Positions 3,943-15,373 of a stretch of DNA of 34,224 nt are shown one piece after another. Below the pieces are notes generated by a model. It was not told the DNA's origin, searched no databases, and was given only the letters and a program-made list of their open reading frames with translations. The stretch spans positions 1 through 34,224 of IMG/VR virus record IMGVR_UViG_3300030012_001364; one strand, given 5' to 3'. The number at the start of each line of letters is the position of its first letter. Positions within the stretch are counted from its first letter, which is position 1. The DNA comes from a virus. The position numbers and the translations under genes were made by a program.

Positions 3943-4753
3943 TTATGAAGGAAGGTACGAGAAAATATTACGACAAAGTTACGTTGACCCACAAGAAAAG
4001 ATTGATTATCCTCCAATCGCTATCTCGAAAGGTAACACAGGTGGAAAAAATCCTATCCCTTTACCAATAGGCACTTATGGAAATTTCAGTTTTATATCTG
4101 CTGCACCAAAAAGTAAGAAGACATTTTTAGTTTCTTTACTTGCAGCATCTTATATGGGTTGTAGTAAACAATACACTAAAGATTTAGTAGGTGTAAAAAA
4201 GAATAAAAAGCTTATACACTACGATACAGAGCAAGGTAGGTTTCATGCACAAAGAACATTTAATAGAGTAACAAGAATGTGTGAGAATACAGAAGATTAT
4301 TTTACTTATGCTCTTAGAGAATATTCAGCATTTGAAAGATTAGATTTTATAAACTGGCACCTGTATCAAATAGATAATCCAGGTCTTGTAATTATAGATG
4401 GTATTGCAGATTTAATTTTGGACAGTAACGATTTAGTTCAGTCTAATAAATTGATACAACATCTGATGAAGTGGACACAAGACCTAAACATCCACATAAT
4501 AACTGTAATACATTCTAATTTTAATAGTGATAAAGCTACTGGTCATTTGGGGTCGTTTATGGAAAAGAAAACAGAAACACAAATTAGTTTAGATTTATCT
4601 TCAGAAGATAGAGATTTGGCAGTTGTTAAATGTAGAAGGTCAAGAGGTTATCCATTTGAGTCTTTTGCTTTTAGAGTAGAGTCAGACGGATTGCCTTACA
4701 TACAAGACTCAATACCTTCTAATATAAATAAAGAATCATTTTTAAATATATGA
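3917..4753 (+). CDS. RecA-fold AAA ATPase (AAA_25 / RepA-like helicase type)
   Basis: A 278-residue P-loop ATPase. A degenerate Walker A, SAAPKSKKT, lies near 61-69; KLIHYDTEQG at 98-107 resembles the RecA-fold strand with an acidic residue; the Walker B is PGLVIIDGIADL (Asp161); and ITVIHSN (about 195-201) is the sensor strand. This is the order seen in AAA_25/RepA-like hexameric helicases and recombination mediators. The Walker A has Lys where the family has the Gly before the catalytic Lys. It may load or move the replication machinery, or act on recombination intermediates. The next gene (RusA) overlaps by 4 nt. The exact role is inferred. Confidence 0.75.
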   Translation: MKKIQTKINYEGRYEKILRQSYVDPQEKIDYPPIAISKGNTGGKNPIPLPIGTYGNFSFISAAPKSKKTFLVSLLAASYMGCSKQYTKDLVGVKKNKKLIHYDTEQGRFHAQRTFNRVTRMCENTEDYFTYALREYSAFERLDFINWHLYQIDNPGLVIIDGIADLILDSNDLVQSNKLIQHLMKWTQDLNIHIITVIHSNFNSDKATGHLGSFMEKKTETQISLDLSSEDRDLAVVKCRRSRGYPFESFAFRVESDGLPYIQDSIPSNINKESFLNI

Positions 4754-5160: not shown

Positions 5161-5312
5161 TGAACATACAGTTTGAATTTATAAAAGGATTTATGGTTGG
5201 TATAGACTATGTTGATGACATTGAAATACCACACATAAATTCTACAGCAGAATTAATTAGGATTAGTTTAGGTATATTTTGGATAAATATTTTTATCTTT
5301 AAAGATGCTTGA
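5160..5312 (+). CDS. Small hypothetical protein with hydrophobic C-terminus
   Basis: A 50-residue ORF. Its ATG overlaps the last base of the RusA stop (TAATG), and its own stop overlaps the next start by 8 nt. The C-terminal third (IRISLGIFWINIFIF) is hydrophobic and could be a membrane anchor. No family is recognised. The double overlap within the operon supports translation. Confidence 0.5.
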   Translation: MNIQFEFIKGFMVGIDYVDDIEIPHINSTAELIRISLGIFWINIFIFKDA

Positions 5313-5874
5313 ATTGTTATCTAAGAATCATAGTACATGGATTGCAATGGGAATGTCTATTGGCATACCAAAACATTTAGTAGGTGACTTCGTTCATGAA
5401 ATGTACTTGAGACTAGATAAATACATGAAAGAACCAAAAAAAATTATGTATAATGATACGGAGGTTAATAAGTTTTATATTTATGTAACTTTGAAAAACC
5501 TCTGGAATGATTACAATAAAGCAAAAGGTAAACATAAAATAATTAGATTAGATGACTATGAGGTAACTTATGAAGTTGTTGACCCTAAAGATGATTACTA
5601 CAATGCTGAAAAACACACAGCAGAACAAAAAATAATTGACAAAATTAAATATGAAGTTGAAGAATGGGAACATTGGTATGATAGAAAATTATTTAAAATA
5701 TATTATGAAACAGATATAAGTATGAGGAAACTTGCAAAAGAAACTCATATAAGCGTTACTTCCATATTTAACAGTTGTAAAAATTATAAAGACATAATCA
5801 AATCAAAGTTTGGTGAAGACTTTGAAGATTATCTAAACGGAGATTTTCACTTAATTAAAAATAACAATGAATAA
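5305..5874 (+). CDS. Sigma-70-like transcription factor
   Basis: A 189-residue protein with the two-part layout of small sigma factors. An N-terminal GIPKHLVGDFVHEMYLRLDKYM block resembles region 2.1-2.2 (EDLVQEVFLRLW type), followed by an aromatic FYIYVTLKNLWNDYNK stretch. A C-terminal helix-turn-helix (about 145-172: ISMRKLAKETHISVTSIFNSCKNYK) resembles region 4. An acidic linker joins them. It may direct host RNA polymerase to phage promoters, or be a DNA-binding regulator derived from a sigma factor. It lies mid-operon in the replication module, which fits control of middle or late transcription. Its sequence is divergent, so sigma activity is inferred. Confidence 0.55.
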   Translation: MLELLSKNHSTWIAMGMSIGIPKHLVGDFVHEMYLRLDKYMKEPKKIMYNDTEVNKFYIYVTLKNLWNDYNKAKGKHKIIRLDDYEVTYEVVDPKDDYYNAEKHTAEQKIIDKIKYEVEEWEHWYDRKLFKIYYETDISMRKLAKETHISVTSIFNSCKNYKDIIKSKFGEDFEDYLNGDFHLIKNNNE

Positions 5875-7792: not shown

Positions 7793-8012
7793 TGTTTACA
7801 GGCAAAGAATAGAAAACGCTTACTATTTGACGCTGGTCGATATTTTAATGGGAGTACCAGAGAGTGAAATAGTTTTAGATATAAATGATTACATTGAATC
7901 TGAAATGTACGAAAATTGTGCAGGAATAGAAAAAGCTATAAATTTTGCTAGAGACAAAACTTATAGTGAAATACAAAAAGAGGTTTTATTATTAAAAGAT
8001 AAGTATGAATAA
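7764..8012 (+). CDS. Small acidic hypothetical protein
   Basis: An 82-residue protein starting MNTLQEVPYDVYRQRIENAY, predicted helical, not recognised. The ATG at 7764 overlaps the nuclease gene by 29 nt; an ATG at 7728 would give a 65-nt overlap and is less likely. It overlaps the next gene by 8 nt. It has no motifs beyond a Glu- and Asp-rich middle (GVPESEIVLDINDYIESEMYE, split over about 38-58). Its position suggests a role in DNA metabolism, but nothing in the sequence shows one. Confidence 0.55.
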   Translation: MNTLQEVPYDVYRQRIENAYYLTLVDILMGVPESEIVLDINDYIESEMYENCAGIEKAINFARDKTYSEIQKEVLLLKDKYE

Positions 8013-8394
8013 AATAACATTAGAATCTATTGTTGAAAAAGTAAATAGACATCTTGACATTGACATTAGAAAAAAGAATAGAGTTAGAGAGTATGTTTAT
8101 GGTAGAGTAATATACTATAAATTAGCCAGAGATTTAACTCAACATACACTTAAAAAAATTGGTAAAGAAGTTTTTAAAGACCATGCTTCTGTAAATGTTG
8201 GGTTAAAAAACTTTGAGTCTATGCTTTTTTATAAAGATAATTTCTACGCTACATATTTAGAAATTAAAGCTGATTATGACAACCATGCTATGTCTGATTC
8301 CTATATTAAGAATCCAGACACTTATTGGAAAAGAAAATATTATGCTTTAAAAAGAGAGATTGCGTCATTGAAGGATGAGAAGAAGGTCACCTAA
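8005..8394 (+). CDS. DnaA domain IV-like helix-turn-helix protein
   Basis: A 129-residue protein. Residues about 22-72 (RKKNRVREYVYGRVIYYKLARDL, then TLKKIGKEVF-KDHASVNVGLKNFE) follow the pattern of the DnaA DNA-binding domain (Bac_DnaA_C / Trp-repressor-like), including the DH-x-S/T-V signature of the recognition helix. No AAA+ domain is present, so it cannot be a complete initiator. It may bind phage origin sites or DnaA boxes to load or compete with host DnaA, or act as a regulator. The C-terminus is a short charged helix. It overlaps its neighbours by 8 and 20 nt. Confidence 0.6.
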   Translation: MNKITLESIVEKVNRHLDIDIRKKNRVREYVYGRVIYYKLARDLTQHTLKKIGKEVFKDHASVNVGLKNFESMLFYKDNFYATYLEIKADYDNHAMSDSYIKNPDTYWKRKYYALKREIASLKDEKKVT

Positions 8395-8665: not shown

Positions 8666-9044
8666 ACAATATAAGTATGTCAAAGAAAATGATGGACGAA
8701 GAAACAATGGACGAAAGCAGGGCGTTAGAAACGTGCCTGTTGTACGACCCACATCTTCTGCTGCTATTAACAATGCCAAACGAAAACGAGTCGGAATCTA
8801 CGCTCTTAACGCAATGGCAAAAGTATTTGGAAGCGAAGAAGAAGCTTGGGAATCATTAGCAGAACAAGCAAAACAATCCTTCCCTCATCTTAAATTACTC
8901 TTTGAATATAAATATGGTAAGCCACTTGATAAGCCTGAAGAGAAACAACAAAAGGTAAATATCAATATTAAGAATCTATTTACTGGTAGTCAAGAAGAAG
9001 ATAATACAATAGAGCTTGATAATGAAGAAGCCAGTTCTGAATAA
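8649..9044 (+). CDS. terS: Putative small terminase subunit
   Basis: A 131-residue protein directly upstream of the large terminase with a 23-nt overlap. It has a very basic N-terminus (MGRKPKQYKY, KENDGRRNNGRKQG), a helical middle (AMAKVFGSEEEAWESLAEQAKQSFPHLKLLFEYKYGKP) and an acidic end. A KYGKP-type segment before a charged tail is common in small terminase-like proteins of Bacteroidota phages. Such proteins recognise phage DNA and present it to the motor. The assignment rests mainly on position and general shape. Confidence 0.55.
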   Translation: MGRKPKQYKYVKENDGRRNNGRKQGVRNVPVVRPTSSAAINNAKRKRVGIYALNAMAKVFGSEEEAWESLAEQAKQSFPHLKLLFEYKYGKPLDKPEEKQQKVNINIKNLFTGSQEEDNTIELDNEEASSE

Positions 9045-10227
9045 AAAATATAATGCACTTGGTAATGACACAAGATACTTTGTTATTACTGGAGGTAGAG
9101 GAAGTGGTAAATCATTCGCTATAACCACCTTTTTAGCCTTTCTAACGTTTGAACAGGGTCATAAGATACTATTCACTAGGTACACTATGATAAGTGCTGC
9201 AAATTCGATTATTCCAGAGTTTCTTGAAAAGCTACAATTATATGATATTGTTGAACACTTTAGGATTACTAAGGATGAAATATTAAATATCAGTACAGGA
9301 AGCTCAATACTATTTAAAGGTATTCGTACATCAGCAGGAAATCAAACGGCAGCTCTGAAGTCTATTAGTGGTATTACAACCTGGGTGCTTGATGAAGCAG
9401 AGGAACTTATAAAGGAAGAGGACTTTGATAAGATAGACCAGTCAGTCAGAGCTAAGAACAAACCTAATAGGGTTATTATGGTTCTGAACCCAGCAACAAA
9501 GGAGCATTGGCTATATCAGAGGTTCTTCATAGGCAAAGGAGTTAATGCAGGATTTAACGGTATGAAAGATATTGTAACTTACATTCATACAACATTTAAA
9601 GATAACATAGATAATTTGTCAGAGTCTTTTCTTTTACAGCTAGAAGACATTAGACGCAGAAGACCAGACAGATATAATCATCAGATACTTGGTGGATGGT
9701 TAGACAAAGCAGAAGGAGTTGTATTTAATAACTGGAAGGTTGGACCATTTGATGAGAGTGCTGAATTTATCTTTGGTCAAGACTTTGGGTTTTCTGTGGA
9801 CCCTACAACTTTAATAAAAGTAGCAATAAATAGAGACAGAAAAAAAATGTGGATAAAAACCATGTTTGCAAAGCCTGGATTATCTACTAAAGACATAGGA
9901 GAACTTAATAGGCGTTACGCAGAAGATAATCTAATTATATGTGATAATGCAGAACCAAGACTTATATCAGAACTTCAGGAGTATTGTAATATAAAGCCGA
10001 CCATTAAACGCAAAGGGTCTATTTTGTCAGGGATTGCCCTTGTTCAGGATTATGATTTAATAATTGATGCTGATAGTATAGAGCTGATAAAAGAGCTGAA
10101 TAATTATGTTTGGCATGAGAGGAACGAAAAACCTGTTGACAAATGGAACCATCAGCTAGACGCACTTCGATACTCTGCACAATATTTCCTCGCCAACGCA
10201 AATAAAGGCGTTTATGTAATAAGGTAG
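9022..10227 (+). CDS. terL: Large terminase subunit (PBSX-type TerL)
   Basis: About 401 residues, normal length for PBSX/T4-type TerL. ATPase half: Walker A GGRGSGKS (about 24-31), coupling region, and Walker B TWVLDEAEEL (about 121-130) with catalytic Glu. Nuclease half: FGQDFGFSVDPTTL (Asp near 255), NLIICDNAEPRLISEL (Asp near 309) and DKWNHQLDALRYSAQYF (Asp near 381), the three acidic residues of the RNase H-like fold. It cuts and translocates DNA into the capsid through the portal encoded at 30382. The ATG at 9022 is preferred to a TTG at 9016. The distance from the head genes is unusual. Confidence 0.95.
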   Translation: MKKPVLNKKYNALGNDTRYFVITGGRGSGKSFAITTFLAFLTFEQGHKILFTRYTMISAANSIIPEFLEKLQLYDIVEHFRITKDEILNISTGSSILFKGIRTSAGNQTAALKSISGITTWVLDEAEELIKEEDFDKIDQSVRAKNKPNRVIMVLNPATKEHWLYQRFFIGKGVNAGFNGMKDIVTYIHTTFKDNIDNLSESFLLQLEDIRRRRPDRYNHQILGGWLDKAEGVVFNNWKVGPFDESAEFIFGQDFGFSVDPTTLIKVAINRDRKKMWIKTMFAKPGLSTKDIGELNRRYAEDNLIICDNAEPRLISELQEYCNIKPTIKRKGSILSGIALVQDYDLIIDADSIELIKELNNYVWHERNEKPVDKWNHQLDALRYSAQYFLANANKGVYVIR

Positions 10228-10394
10228 TCATTAAACGCAGTAGGTATTATATAATCGTTAAACGCAATAGGTCTAGGCAATGCTATCTCAACATAAAGAA
10301 ATGTGATTCCATACACAAACAAAAATGTTAATGTTACAAAAGCAAAAGCCAAACAAATAATTAAAAGCATTTCCATCCACGTTTCCTTGCTCAT
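10212..10394 (-). CDS. Possible minus-strand small membrane protein
   Basis: On the minus strand an ATG at 10394 opens a 60-residue ORF with one strong hydrophobic helix (EMLLIICLAFAFVTLTFLF) after MSKETW. It would be the only minus-strand gene. It ends inside the terL 3' end, and its last 20 residues are translations of the 14-bp motif copies. AT-rich DNA often yields such hydrophobic chance ORFs, so this is weak. If real, it is convergent with terL. Confidence 0.22.
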   Translation of the reverse strand: MSKETWMEMLLIICLAFAFVTLTFLFVYGITFLYVEIALPRPIAFNDYIIPTAFNDYLIT

Positions 10395-10440
10395 TAAACG
10401 CAGTAGGGCTTGTTGATACCTGACTCTTAAACGCAGTAGG
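10231..10440 (+). repeat. Cluster A of the 14-bp motif TTAAACGCAGTAGG (4 copies)
   Basis: Copies at 10231-10244, 10258-10271 (one change, GCAATAGG), 10394-10407 and 10427-10440, all in the same orientation, with irregular spacers of 13, 122 and 19 nt. They lie in the gap before the promoter of the unknown cassette. The irregular spacing argues against a CRISPR array and in favour of protein or RNA binding sites. Confidence 0.8.
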
Positions 10441-12181: not shown

Positions 12182-12415
12182 ATGAATAAAAAAGATAAGG
12201 AGACTTTAAAGAAGCATATCATAATTAAGTATGCTGAAGAGTTGTTTGATTCATTAAACTTTGTAGATTATACAATTTACAAATTAAGTGGTTCTAAGGA
12301 AGACAGAATGTTTTTATTAGATTTAGAGTCGGACAGAGAGTTGACTGCAGAAGAGTACGCAGATATGTCAAATAAGATATTTGATGAGTTCTGTCATGTA
12401 GTCAAAGATTATTAA
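12182..12415 (+). CDS. Small acidic hypothetical protein
   Basis: A 77-residue, helical, acidic protein (MNKKDKETLKKHIIIKYAEE, later LLDLESDRELTAEEYADMSN). It starts 3 nt after the previous stop. Its stop codon lies inside a TTAAACATAGTACG motif. No family is recognised. Similar size, acidity and layout to the next gene suggest the two may be distant relatives, though I cannot align them convincingly. Confidence 0.6.
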   Translation: MNKKDKETLKKHIIIKYAEELFDSLNFVDYTIYKLSGSKEDRMFLLDLESDRELTAEEYADMSNKIFDEFCHVVKDY

Positions 12416-12427
12416 ACATAGTACGAT

Positions 12428-12622
12428 ATGAATAGAGAACAAATTTCAGAAATAGCTTCAGATATTTACTTTTATTTTATAGATGAAATAACTGAACACA
12501 AAGTTTTATATGATGACTTTATAATTCATTATGAAGATTATTCAGAAAACACCGATAGAGGTAGTGAATTATTTTATCGAATTGAAGATAAACTAATGGA
12601 AAAGTTTGGAACAGATTCTTAA
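12428..12622 (+). CDS. Small, highly acidic hypothetical protein
   Basis: A 64-residue protein with about 17 Asp/Glu against about 6 Lys/Arg, rich in Tyr, Phe and Ile (for example DIYFYFIDEIT and DDFIIHYEDYSEN). Small, strongly acidic phage proteins of this kind are sometimes DNA mimics that block host DNA-binding enzymes; here that is only a suggestion from composition. A TTAAACATAGTACG motif lies 2 nt before the ATG, and another starts at the stop codon. Confidence 0.6.
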   Translation: MNREQISEIASDIYFYFIDEITEHKVLYDDFIIHYEDYSENTDRGSELFYRIEDKLMEKFGTDS

Positions 12623-12721
12623 ACATAGTAGGTTAATTCTTAAACGCAGTAGGTAGATTTATTTCTGCCTGTTGCGTTTTTCTTAAACGCAGTAGGTTTG
12701 GTTACTCTTAAACGCAGTAGG
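12619..12721 (+). repeat. Cluster B of the 14-bp motif (4 copies)
   Basis: Copies at 12619-12632 (ATAGTAGG form), 12640-12653, 12683-12696 and 12708-12721, all + orientation, with spacers of 7, 29 and 11 nt. A fifth copy, TTAAACATAGTACG, is at 12412-12425. The third copy pairs with an inverted copy at 12668-12681 to make a hairpin. Confidence 0.8.
12668..12696 (+). other. Hairpin formed by inverted motif copies
   Basis: CCTGTTGCGTTT (12668-12679) pairs with AAACGCAGTAGG (12685-12696) through a 5-nt loop, 12 pairs including two adjacent G-U wobbles. It is followed by TTTGG, too short a T-run for a confident terminator. It may be a transcript-end or RNA-protein signal. Confidence 0.5.
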
Positions 12722-13090: not shown

Positions 13091-13106
13091 TGTTCCACGT
13101 GAAACA
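13091..13106. promoter_or_regulatory. parS: parS-consensus site (TGTTNCACGTGAAACA)
   Basis: The 16 bases TGTTCCACGTGAAACA match the conserved bacterial parS consensus at every fixed position; the one degenerate base breaks the palindrome. Chromosomal ParB (Spo0J) binds this sequence and spreads as a CTPase clamp. A chance match of 15 fixed bases in 34 kb is very unlikely. No parA or parB gene is present in the window, so any use would rely on host ParB. Confidence 0.75.
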
Positions 13107-13594: not shown

Positions 13595-13892
13595 ACAATA
13601 TCCAATATATAACGTAATCAATTCTTGTGCTTATAAGCAAGAGAATAAAAGCTATGGTATTAAAGAACATGGTGAACTTCATTGTTACATAGGAACTAGC
13701 AAACAAAGGTCATATAGTTTCTTTAATACTAAGACAACACACAGAGAAATAAAACCTAATCTGCACGAGTACAGATTTTATTTGGATGGACAATTAATCA
13801 AGACAGCTAAATATGATTATGTTTTGGACGAAGTTGAAATCGAAACTAATATAATTCACTCTGGAGACATTGGAGTTTTATTTAATAGCTAA
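13587..13892 (+). CDS. Hypothetical beta-rich protein
   Basis: A 101-residue protein, mostly short strands rich in Tyr, Asn and Lys (YGIKEHGELHCYIGTSKQ, then HEYRFYLDGQLIKTAKYDY). No signal peptide, membrane segment or known motif. It is last of the overlapping run starting at 13126. Not recognised; probably an early accessory protein, by position. Confidence 0.55.
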   Translation: MSKQYPIYNVINSCAYKQENKSYGIKEHGELHCYIGTSKQRSYSFFNTKTTHREIKPNLHEYRFYLDGQLIKTAKYDYVLDEVEIETNIIHSGDIGVLFNS

Positions 13893-13909
13893 ATATAAAT
13901 AGATTAATT

Positions 13910-14035
13910 ATGAAACATAGATTTTTTAAATTCTTAGACCGATTAATAATACTATGCGAAAAGATAACGCCATGGTTTATCGCCTTTGCTATCTTATATT
14001 TTACATATCATTTAATAATAAACTTAATATATTAA
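13910..14035 (+). CDS. Single-pass small membrane protein
   Basis: A 41-residue ORF with a basic N-terminus (MKHRFFKFLDR) and one hydrophobic helix (about 21-40, PWFIAFAILYFTYHLIINLI). This looks like an inner-membrane peptide with a cytoplasmic N-terminus. It starts 17 nt after the previous stop and ends 2 nt before the next ATG. Such peptides can be superinfection-exclusion or host-takeover factors; no specific role is shown. Confidence 0.45.
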   Translation: MKHRFFKFLDRLIILCEKITPWFIAFAILYFTYHLIINLIY

Positions 14036-14037
14036 TT

Positions 14038-14181
14038 ATGACACAATTCAAATTTATGAGCATTTGCGGTGATTATTTAATTGAACCTTATCAAGTTTTA
14101 GACGATTTAAGGGACGACAAAAAGAGCTGGCAAAGTATGACACCTAAACAGCTAGAAACGTTCTTAGAAGAGCGTTATTAA
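14038..14181 (+). CDS. Small hypothetical protein
   Basis: A 47-residue protein starting MTQFKFMSICGDYLIEPYQV and ending with a charged helix (MTPKQLETFLEERY). The ATG at 14038, 2 nt after the preceding stop, is preferred to one at 13954 in the same frame, which would overlap the membrane-peptide gene for most of its length. Not recognised. Confidence 0.5.
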   Translation: MTQFKFMSICGDYLIEPYQVLDDLRDDKKSWQSMTPKQLETFLEERY

Positions 14182-14204
14182 ATTATTAGTTTAGTTTATA
14201 TTTA

Positions 14205-14248
14205 TTGGCTGATTATAAAATTAAATTATTTTATACTTGGCTGATTAT
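14205..14248 (+). repeat. Direct repeat TTGGCTGATTAT, two copies
   Basis: Identical 12-mers at 14205-14216 and 14237-14248, 32 bp apart (about three helical turns), directly upstream of the long hairpin. The second overlaps TATACTTG (14232-14239), a one-mismatch -7 element. They may be regulator sites for an RNA starting near 14246. Confidence 0.5.
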
Positions 14249-14251
14249 CAA

Positions 14252-14336
14252 AATACAGGAGTTTTAAGGGGTTAAAAATGCTTTTAAATTCTACGCATTG
14301 CAGAAACTCTTTTTAGTCCCTTAGAACTTCTGTATT
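14252..14336 (+). ncRNA. Candidate structured RNA: 27-bp stem-loop
   Basis: Bases 14252-14278 pair without interruption with 14310-14336, 27 pairs of which four are G-U wobbles. The 31-nt loop has a possible inner TGC/GCA closure. The G-U pairs would be mismatches in a DNA cruciform but pair in + strand RNA, so selection on RNA is more likely than on DNA. There is no good U-tract after it, so it is not a simple terminator. No known RNA family is recognised. Confidence 0.6.
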
Positions 14337-14424
14337 GAGATAATAAAGGATATTTGGGAAAAATGACGTAAAAAGACATTAGGGATGGGTGAGTTCTCCA
14401 CTTAAGGAAATTCAAACAGATATG

Positions 14425-14455
14425 AAAAAAGCTCCAGAAAAATATCCAGAGCTTT
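14425..14455 (-). terminator. Hairpin, possible minus-strand terminator
   Basis: AAAGCTC (14428-14434) and GAGCTTT (14449-14455) form a 7-bp stem. Read on the minus strand, the hairpin is followed by a run of six T. No minus-strand gene is known to end here, so the function is uncertain. Confidence 0.3.
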
Positions 14456-14474
14456 AAACAAAAAACTTTATAAT

Positions 14475-14555
14475 ATGAAAAATACTTATAAGCTAAATTA
14501 CAAAAAAGAATATAATTATCCTAAGCCTAAATTTATTTATAAGAGAAGATTTTAA
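14475..14555 (+). CDS. Tiny basic Tyr-rich ORF
   Basis: A 26-residue ORF rich in Lys, Tyr and Arg (MKNTYKLNYKKEYNYPKPKF and a short tail). Not recognised. It stands alone between the hairpin region and the tail module. It has an A/T-rich leader like other genes here, but it could easily be a chance ORF. Confidence 0.25.
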   Translation: MKNTYKLNYKKEYNYPKPKFIYKRRF

Positions 14556-14656
14556 ATTATTTGTAATTCTTAATCTTCGATAATATAACTAATAAATACA
14601 AAAGTGTTTTATTTTTATATCTTTACTACATAATAATAATAAATGGTTATAATAAT

Positions 14657-15373
14657 ATGAGTCAGACATTTGAGATTAGTTTACCAACTGAATTATCTGG
14701 GATAAAACTAAAACAATACCAGAAATATATTAAGACTGTGCAAACAGACCCCGATAAACAGCCTACAGAACAAGAGATAGAGTTTGCTAACTTAAAGCTG
14801 TTAGAATGTTTTTGTGGTTTGTCTCTCAAGGAAGCACATAAGTTACCTATGACAGAGTTTACAGGGATACTAAGACATATATCAGAACTATTTAAAGAAA
14901 AGACACCTTTACAAAGGATGTTTACTATGACTGATAAGAACGGAAAAACTATAGAGTTTGGTTTTATACCAAAGCTTGATGATATATCAATGGGAGAATT
15001 TATTGACTTAGATAAATATATTTCGGATTGGCAACAGATGCACAAGGCAATGGCTGTTTTATACAGACCAGTAAAACACAAAAAAGGAGATTTATATTTA
15101 ATAGAAGATTATGAAGGCACAGATAAATATTCAGATATAATGCTTGACTCTCCAGTCAACGCTGCTATAGGTGCAACGGTTTTTTTTTACAATTTAGGGA
15201 AAGAGTTGTCAAAAGTTATGATACACTCTTTGGAGAAGTATCTGGAACAGGAATCGGACTCTCTGCAAGTTTCGGAAATAAATGGGGATGGTATCAATCA
15301 GTCTATGCACTTGCTAACGGAAATGTCAAAGAATTTGAAAAAGTTACAAAGCTCCCCTTATTTCAATGTTTAA
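14657..15373 (+). CDS. Tail assembly chaperone, short form (G-like)
   Basis: A 238-residue protein, first gene of the tail module. It starts MSQTFEISLPTELSGIKLKQ and has helices typical of tail chaperones, such as LKLLECFCGLSLKEAHKLP and DDISMGEFIDLDKYISDW. The zero-frame end (ATVFFYNLGKEL through GDGINQSMHLLTEMSKNLKK) also reads like natural protein. A second frame overlaps its last 190 nt and is reached by a probable -1 shift at 15181-15187. The short/long pair would coat the tape measure protein during tail assembly, as lambda gpG/gpGT do. Assignment rests on position, the frame overlap and overall pattern. Confidence 0.65.
   Translation: MSQTFEISLPTELSGIKLKQYQKYIKTVQTDPDKQPTEQEIEFANLKLLECFCGLSLKEAHKLPMTEFTGILRHISELFKEKTPLQRMFTMTDKNGKTIEFGFIPKLDDISMGEFIDLDKYISDWQQMHKAMAVLYRPVKHKKGDLYLIEDYEGTDKYSDIMLDSPVNAAIGATVFFYNLGKELSKVMIHSLEKYLEQESDSLQVSEINGDGINQSMHLLTEMSKNLKKLQSSPYFNV

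Follow-up and report, generated by a model that had tools for sequence, protein, structure and literature searches.

In T7 early mRNA, hairpins between genes are cut by the RNase III of the host. The put RNA of phage HK022 consists of two short, specific stem-loops that act on RNA polymerase just before terminators. R1.1 of T7 is a standard RNase III substrate (PMC6121014), and phage-encoded small regulatory RNAs have been reviewed (PMC12197685). In Flavobacterium johnsoniae, the -7 element is TAHHTTTG, and transcription starts 4–5 nt downstream of it (PMC6847099).

The stretch of viral DNA analyzed here (the window) is a whole record of 34,224 bases, linear and with no end repeats found. It carries a long hairpin (H1) directly preceded by a small one (H0). 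Like the T7 RNase III signals (R1.1 and others), H1 is a long hairpin situated between blocks of phage genes, in a plus-strand polycistronic message that is predicted here; the T7 sites, located between early genes, are marked by characteristic internal loops, whereas H1 has a longer stem, a conserved 31-nt loop, and a place beside a promoter-like block. H0 and H1 resemble HK022 put in being a predicted structured leader RNA ahead of a phage operon, but no terminator lies between H1 and the tail genes. With the phage-encoded small regulatory RNAs (PMC12197685) they share a noncoding, structured nature and a promoter-like block of their own, but they lack a terminator. H1 also has the same position, between the accessory genes and a 49-nt unit, as the intrinsic terminators of related phages, from which it differs by the missing U-tract and the 31-nt loop. 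By these comparisons, H1 would work most like a processing hairpin or a structured phage leader, and membership in the T7 type cannot be claimed. The features of the region are as follows (coordinates in the window, strand, description):

14188–14204, plus strand: P1, a predicted promoter; promoter-like block AGTTTAGTTTATATTTA with the -7-like box TATATTTA, within a 23-nt invariant block.
14206–14243, plus strand: H0, a small hairpin whose arms contain both direct repeats; its pairs are kept in relatives through G-C, A-U, and G-U changes.
14244–14344, plus strand: H1, the long hairpin; 6 outer pairs, a 2 × 2 internal loop, and the 27-pair stem at 14252–14336.
14279–14309, plus strand: loop of H1, with the core TTTAAATTNTACNNATT nearly invariant within the hairpin clade.
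14366–14414, plus strand: 49-nt unit, ACGTAAAAYG-N-TATC-N-TTTAATAAAATCA, divergent in the window; relatives have one copy or two in tandem.
14428–14455, minus strand: H2, an intrinsic terminator facing the 49-nt unit, AAAGCTCTGGATATTTTTCTGGAGCTTTTTTC; a minus-strand terminator is found here in 36 of 53 distinct loci.
14494–14530, no strand assigned: conserved stretch containing AAGAATATAATTATCCTAAGCCTAA, from an alignment of 32 loci.
14618–14625, plus strand: P2, a predicted promoter of the tail operon; -7-like box TATCTTTA within a promoter-like block that is strongly conserved among relatives.
14657–15373, plus strand: gene that opens the tail/virion block (238 aa, phrog_32199); no Pfam family, at least 80 relatives in IMG/VR.

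The first-pass annotation had described an uninterrupted stem of 27 pairs at 14252–14336, and this stem was recovered in full: 23 Watson-Crick and 4 G-U pairs join the arms (14252–14278 and 14310–14336) around a loop of 31 nt. The description is right and rather too modest, as there are extra pairs and a second hairpin, H0. Beyond a 2 × 2 internal loop, H1 gains 6 outer pairs (14244–14249 with 14339–14344), and its arms total 35 nt once the 2-nt internal loop and the outer pairs are included. The 27-pair run was the longest uninterrupted stem of the window, followed by one of 16 pairs; in six dinucleotide shuffles of the window, the maximum stem was 14–20 pairs. RNA folding, which had been proposed as a check, gave −30.6 kcal/mol for the stem (z = −6.0), and none of 200 shuffles was equally stable. 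As had been claimed, only the plus-strand RNA pairs fully: the minus strand turns the four wobbles into mismatches, yet it still folds (−25.1 kcal/mol). The reported lack of a terminator U-tract was also correct, with no T run after 14336 and no plus-strand intrinsic terminator in 13800–15000. With a 31-nt loop and no U-tract, H1 is not an intrinsic terminator. The first reading had recognized no RNA family, and the proposed search of Rfam 15 agreed, with no match at the gathering score in the window or in 12 relatives; a permissive search gave solely sub-threshold matches to microRNA-type hairpin models. No convincing match was found by DNA similarity among 50,697 phage records; a gut microvirus matched at 73% (E = 3e-3), which was discarded as A+T-rich, chance-like similarity.

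The full hairpin was found in six sequences only: the window and the related loci L013, L009, L014, L016, and L017 (L083, L085, and L086 are additional cuts from three hairpin-bearing contigs). The stem was sought throughout IMG/VR with a degenerate pattern, in nine relatives by DNA, and in 81 sources and 18 records with a covariance model (R1). Outside the hairpin clade, R1 had no significant match; its positions 76–114 match weakly in L010 and L015, both stemless. The hairpin is absent from L003, L010, L015, L005, and L018, relatives whose next gene encodes a protein 60–74% identical, and the phage group as a whole therefore does not depend on it. No second copy of H1 occurred in the genomes searched.

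In the six-sequence alignment, which contains five distinct stems (those of L016 and L017 are identical), the proposed search for covarying positions showed that pairing is conserved, with 8 pairs changed on both sides. Paired cells amounted to 84.6%, compared with 77.6% in shuffles (0 of 500 as high) and at most 60% when the structure was slid, and the covariation score was 0.287, compared with at most 0.117 for the slid structure. The 27-pair stems of the relatives hold 15–23 Watson-Crick and 4–7 G-U pairs with 2–5 mismatches, and the perfect 27 occurs only in the window. In H0 and H1 together, G-U was found in 19 pair columns and A-C in 4 (one-sided binomial P ~0.001, columns being assumed independent and shared ancestry ignored); counted by cells, there were 26 G-U vs. 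3 A-C in H1, and 12 vs. 1 in H0. Because decay of a DNA palindrome would produce G-T and A-C mismatches without preference and G-U prevails, it is the plus-strand RNA that is kept. Thus, the compensatory changes and the asymmetry between G-U and A-C support the earlier suggestion of a structured plus-strand RNA over a DNA cruciform; covariation and one-strand tolerance of G-U, the marks of a functional plus-strand RNA structure, were both found. The comparison indicates that selection is acting on the plus-strand RNA of the stem, in a small sample of five distinct stems. The loop core TTTAAATTNTACNNATT was as conserved as the stem.

The proteins indicate a tailed phage of Flavobacteriia, and among named phages, only the Nonlabens phages P12024S and P12024L have relatives of the first tail-block gene (28–29% identity). 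The terminase genes (terL, 9016–10227) are to the left of the stem, followed by a 4-kb block of small accessory ORFs that ends at 14181; to the right lies the virion block, with the head protease and portal farther along. The place first assigned to the stem, between accessory and tail modules, fits this gene content. Relatives were gathered from IMG/VR with the 238-aa protein (the best 80 loci, then another best 80), and they preserve the order of terminase, accessory block, noncoding region, and tail block. The interval 14182–14656 is free of ORFs of at least 50 aa, and a 26-aa ORF at 14476 was rejected because its reading frame is lost in the aligned relatives.

Several other features of these genomes were observed. 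An iterated 14-mer, TTAAACGCAGTAGG (variant TTAAACATAGTAGG), occurs at 10231–10440, right after terL, and at 12412–12721, after small ORFs (22 matches at no more than three mismatches, 2.6 expected); clusters of it also follow terL in L010, L013, L015, L091, L110, and L117. The sequence TGTTCCACGTGAAACA (13091–13106, noncoding accessory DNA), which agrees at every base with the parS consensus bound by ParB, recurs as an identical 16-mer in L019 (2570–2585) and as the variants CGTTCCACGTGGAACA in L023 and L024. Tandem repeats of 15 nt, of the type TGTTGTACATACAAC, occur close to the terminase end and immediately ahead of the 49-nt units (L110:2002–2127, L110:4532–4563, and L100 ~4570–4600). A 189-aa protein of the window (5305–5874) shows weak, sub-threshold helix-turn-helix similarity at its C-terminus, and the same gene block in P12024S encodes a sigma-70 region 2 protein.

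Upstream of the stem, the -7-like box noted in the first reading was found again, the best being TATATTTA (14197–14204), which matches the F. johnsoniae consensus except at the final base. It lies inside a 23-nt block, ATTATTAGTTTAGTTTATATTTA (14182–14204), that is invariant in all six hairpin-bearing sequences. Because starts in F. johnsoniae fall 4–5 nt past the -7 element (PMC6847099), the RNA is predicted to begin at ~14209, and H0 probably stands at its 5′ end. The two 12-bp direct repeats of the first reading are also present (TTGGCTGATTAT at 14205–14216 and 14237–14248). In the relatives, H0 is an ordinary inverted repeat (e.g., CAGTCAATTA / TAATTGGCTG in L014); the arms of the window have drifted to GGCUGA / UUGGCU, held together by G-U pairs, and this drift accounts for the two direct repeats. 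On the tail-gene side, the same spacing rule (PMC6847099) places the predicted start of P2 at ~14630, with a 27-nt leader.

The 49-nt unit is found in about 50 related phage loci, as one copy or as two in tandem at period 49 (e.g., L110:4564–4661 and L117:4694–4791). Its 84 distinct copies align ungapped and show no consensus RNA pairing within the unit. The copy of the window was located via its aligned neighbors, and the unit profile matches it weakly (E = 0.09–0.2). The unit is confined to one site per genome searched; one contig carries it at both ends because its ends overlap. A search of genome contigs for the unit's 17-mer junction gave 116 matches, about chance level, and the full unit was in none. 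To the right of the last unit, no plus-strand intrinsic terminator accompanied the 36 minus-strand ones (0 of 53 distinct loci), nor was one found within 125 nt past the unit in 53 loci; between the unit and the tail gene, 29 of 30 loci had none. On the left side, a plus-strand terminator is present in 41 of 49 loci and a minus-strand-like one in 6. In the hairpin clade, a scan of 330 nt showed no left terminator, and the hairpins occupy that place; in L013, there is a weaker terminator candidate ~390 nt upstream of the unit. A distant group (L115–L133) has a different hairpin between terminator and units, with compensatory differences seen by eye (GGCGC/GCGCT vs. GCCCC/GGGCT), so that a structured segment may be general at this locus and its shape not. 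The 49-nt unit between inward-facing terminators is a more unusual feature than the hairpin.

Contigs end within ~130 nt of the unit in L012, L096, L126, L127, L132, L136, L202, and L204, by eye more commonly than expected and not at one base. A cos site at the unit was rejected, as contig ends cluster within ~1 kb upstream and never at a single base. A small protein encoded shortly before terS (8005–8394) carries the C-terminal DNA-binding domain of DnaA (PF08299); it is found in nearly all relatives and is absent from P12024S. As a partner of the unit it was rejected as not specific: it occurs in all 17 unit-bearing genomes first tested, yet also in most unit-less relatives.

At the hairpin, the late message probably starts or is processed. 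Our preferred reading, which we hold tentatively, is that H0 and H1 form the 5′ leader of the late tail transcript, in which the long stem would be cut by host RNase III or would otherwise bound the accessory and late messages. A plus-strand RNA would start at P1, open with H0 and then H1, and read toward the tail genes, the two hairpins being the upstream portion of a long leader served by two promoters, P1 and P2. At H1, host RNase III would cut the 27-bp duplex and part the accessory, upstream RNA from the tail message, and the cut would fix a stable processed end at the place that an intrinsic terminator takes in related phages. We infer the promoter activity of P1, the read-through into the tail operon, and the cleavage. 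The RNase III hairpins to which H1 is compared are intergenic duplexes of about two helical turns, a length that the 27 bp reach in a transcript that is predicted. The leader is favored by compensatory changes that exceed the slid and shuffled controls, by the 19 to 4 excess of G-U over A-C columns, by the invariant block directly preceding H0 with its -7 box of Flavobacterium type and spacing, and by the absence from the hairpin clade, within the 330 nt scanned, of the left plus-strand terminator that 41 of 49 loci have. Transcription from P1 should extend into the tail genes because a plus-strand terminator is absent from 13800–15000 of the window and, between unit and tail gene, from 29 of 30 loci. 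Against the leader stand the narrow distribution of the full hairpin, in six sequences, and P2, which by itself could serve the tail genes. The mismatches in the stems of relatives mean that a perfect RNase III duplex is not the conserved trait, and the loop core matches the stem in conservation, which simple cleavage would not require.

A core that is nearly invariant while the arms vary, and of which traces survive in the stemless L010 and L015, would suit a discrete phage small RNA comprising H0 and H1 and perhaps ending near the unit, which would act in trans via the 31-nt loop on host or phage RNA or protein. Such an RNA would have its own conserved promoter-like block; the absence of a plus-strand terminator downstream, both in the window and within 125 nt past the unit in 53 loci, speaks against it, and we consider it rather unlikely. 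It is quite improbable that H1 protects or sets the 3′ end of the transcript of the accessory genes upstream, as a terminator substitute or exonuclease barrier: the hairpins do stand in the clade where relatives have their left intrinsic terminator, and the last accessory ORF stops at 14181, but no U-tract follows H1, and the invariant promoter-like block lies between H1 and the accessory gene.

Equally improbable is that the noncoding locus as a whole serves as a DNA site (a replication origin, packaging site, or late-promoter operator) centered on the 49-nt units and shielded from transcription by the inward terminators, with H1 as priming RNA or DNA structure. A fixed-length unit without RNA consensus structure, at a single site per genome and often in tandem, the inward-facing terminators, and the several contigs ending at or near the unit all agree with such a site, but the G-U/A-C asymmetry of H1 points to RNA, GC skew does not turn at the locus, contig ends are scattered over bases, and the DnaA-type candidate partner also occurs in unit-less relatives. 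With similarly little confidence, we consider that hairpins, 49-nt units, and inward-facing terminators could be one conserved, previously undescribed control locus of these flavobacterial phages: a transcription-insulated DNA site, single in each genome, to which a structured RNA is dedicated, such as an origin primed by RNA or a switch to late expression or packaging that RNA assists. A chance palindrome or an inserted inverted-repeat element, which the perfect 27 bp special to the window and the mismatches of the relatives might suggest, is hardly credible, because shuffles reach 14–20 pairs at most, the position is conserved, covariation rules out chance provided that the six-sequence alignment does not mislead, and a mobile element (MITE) is ruled out by the single copy in the genomes searched and by stemless relatives that still align through the loop core.

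Structured RNAs have hardly been described in phages of Bacteroidota. H1 combines evolutionary proof of pairing with a defined promoter-like start and a clear position at the late-gene border, and the surrounding locus, found in about 50 phage loci, is a concrete target for the late switch, replication, or packaging in a common marine phage group.
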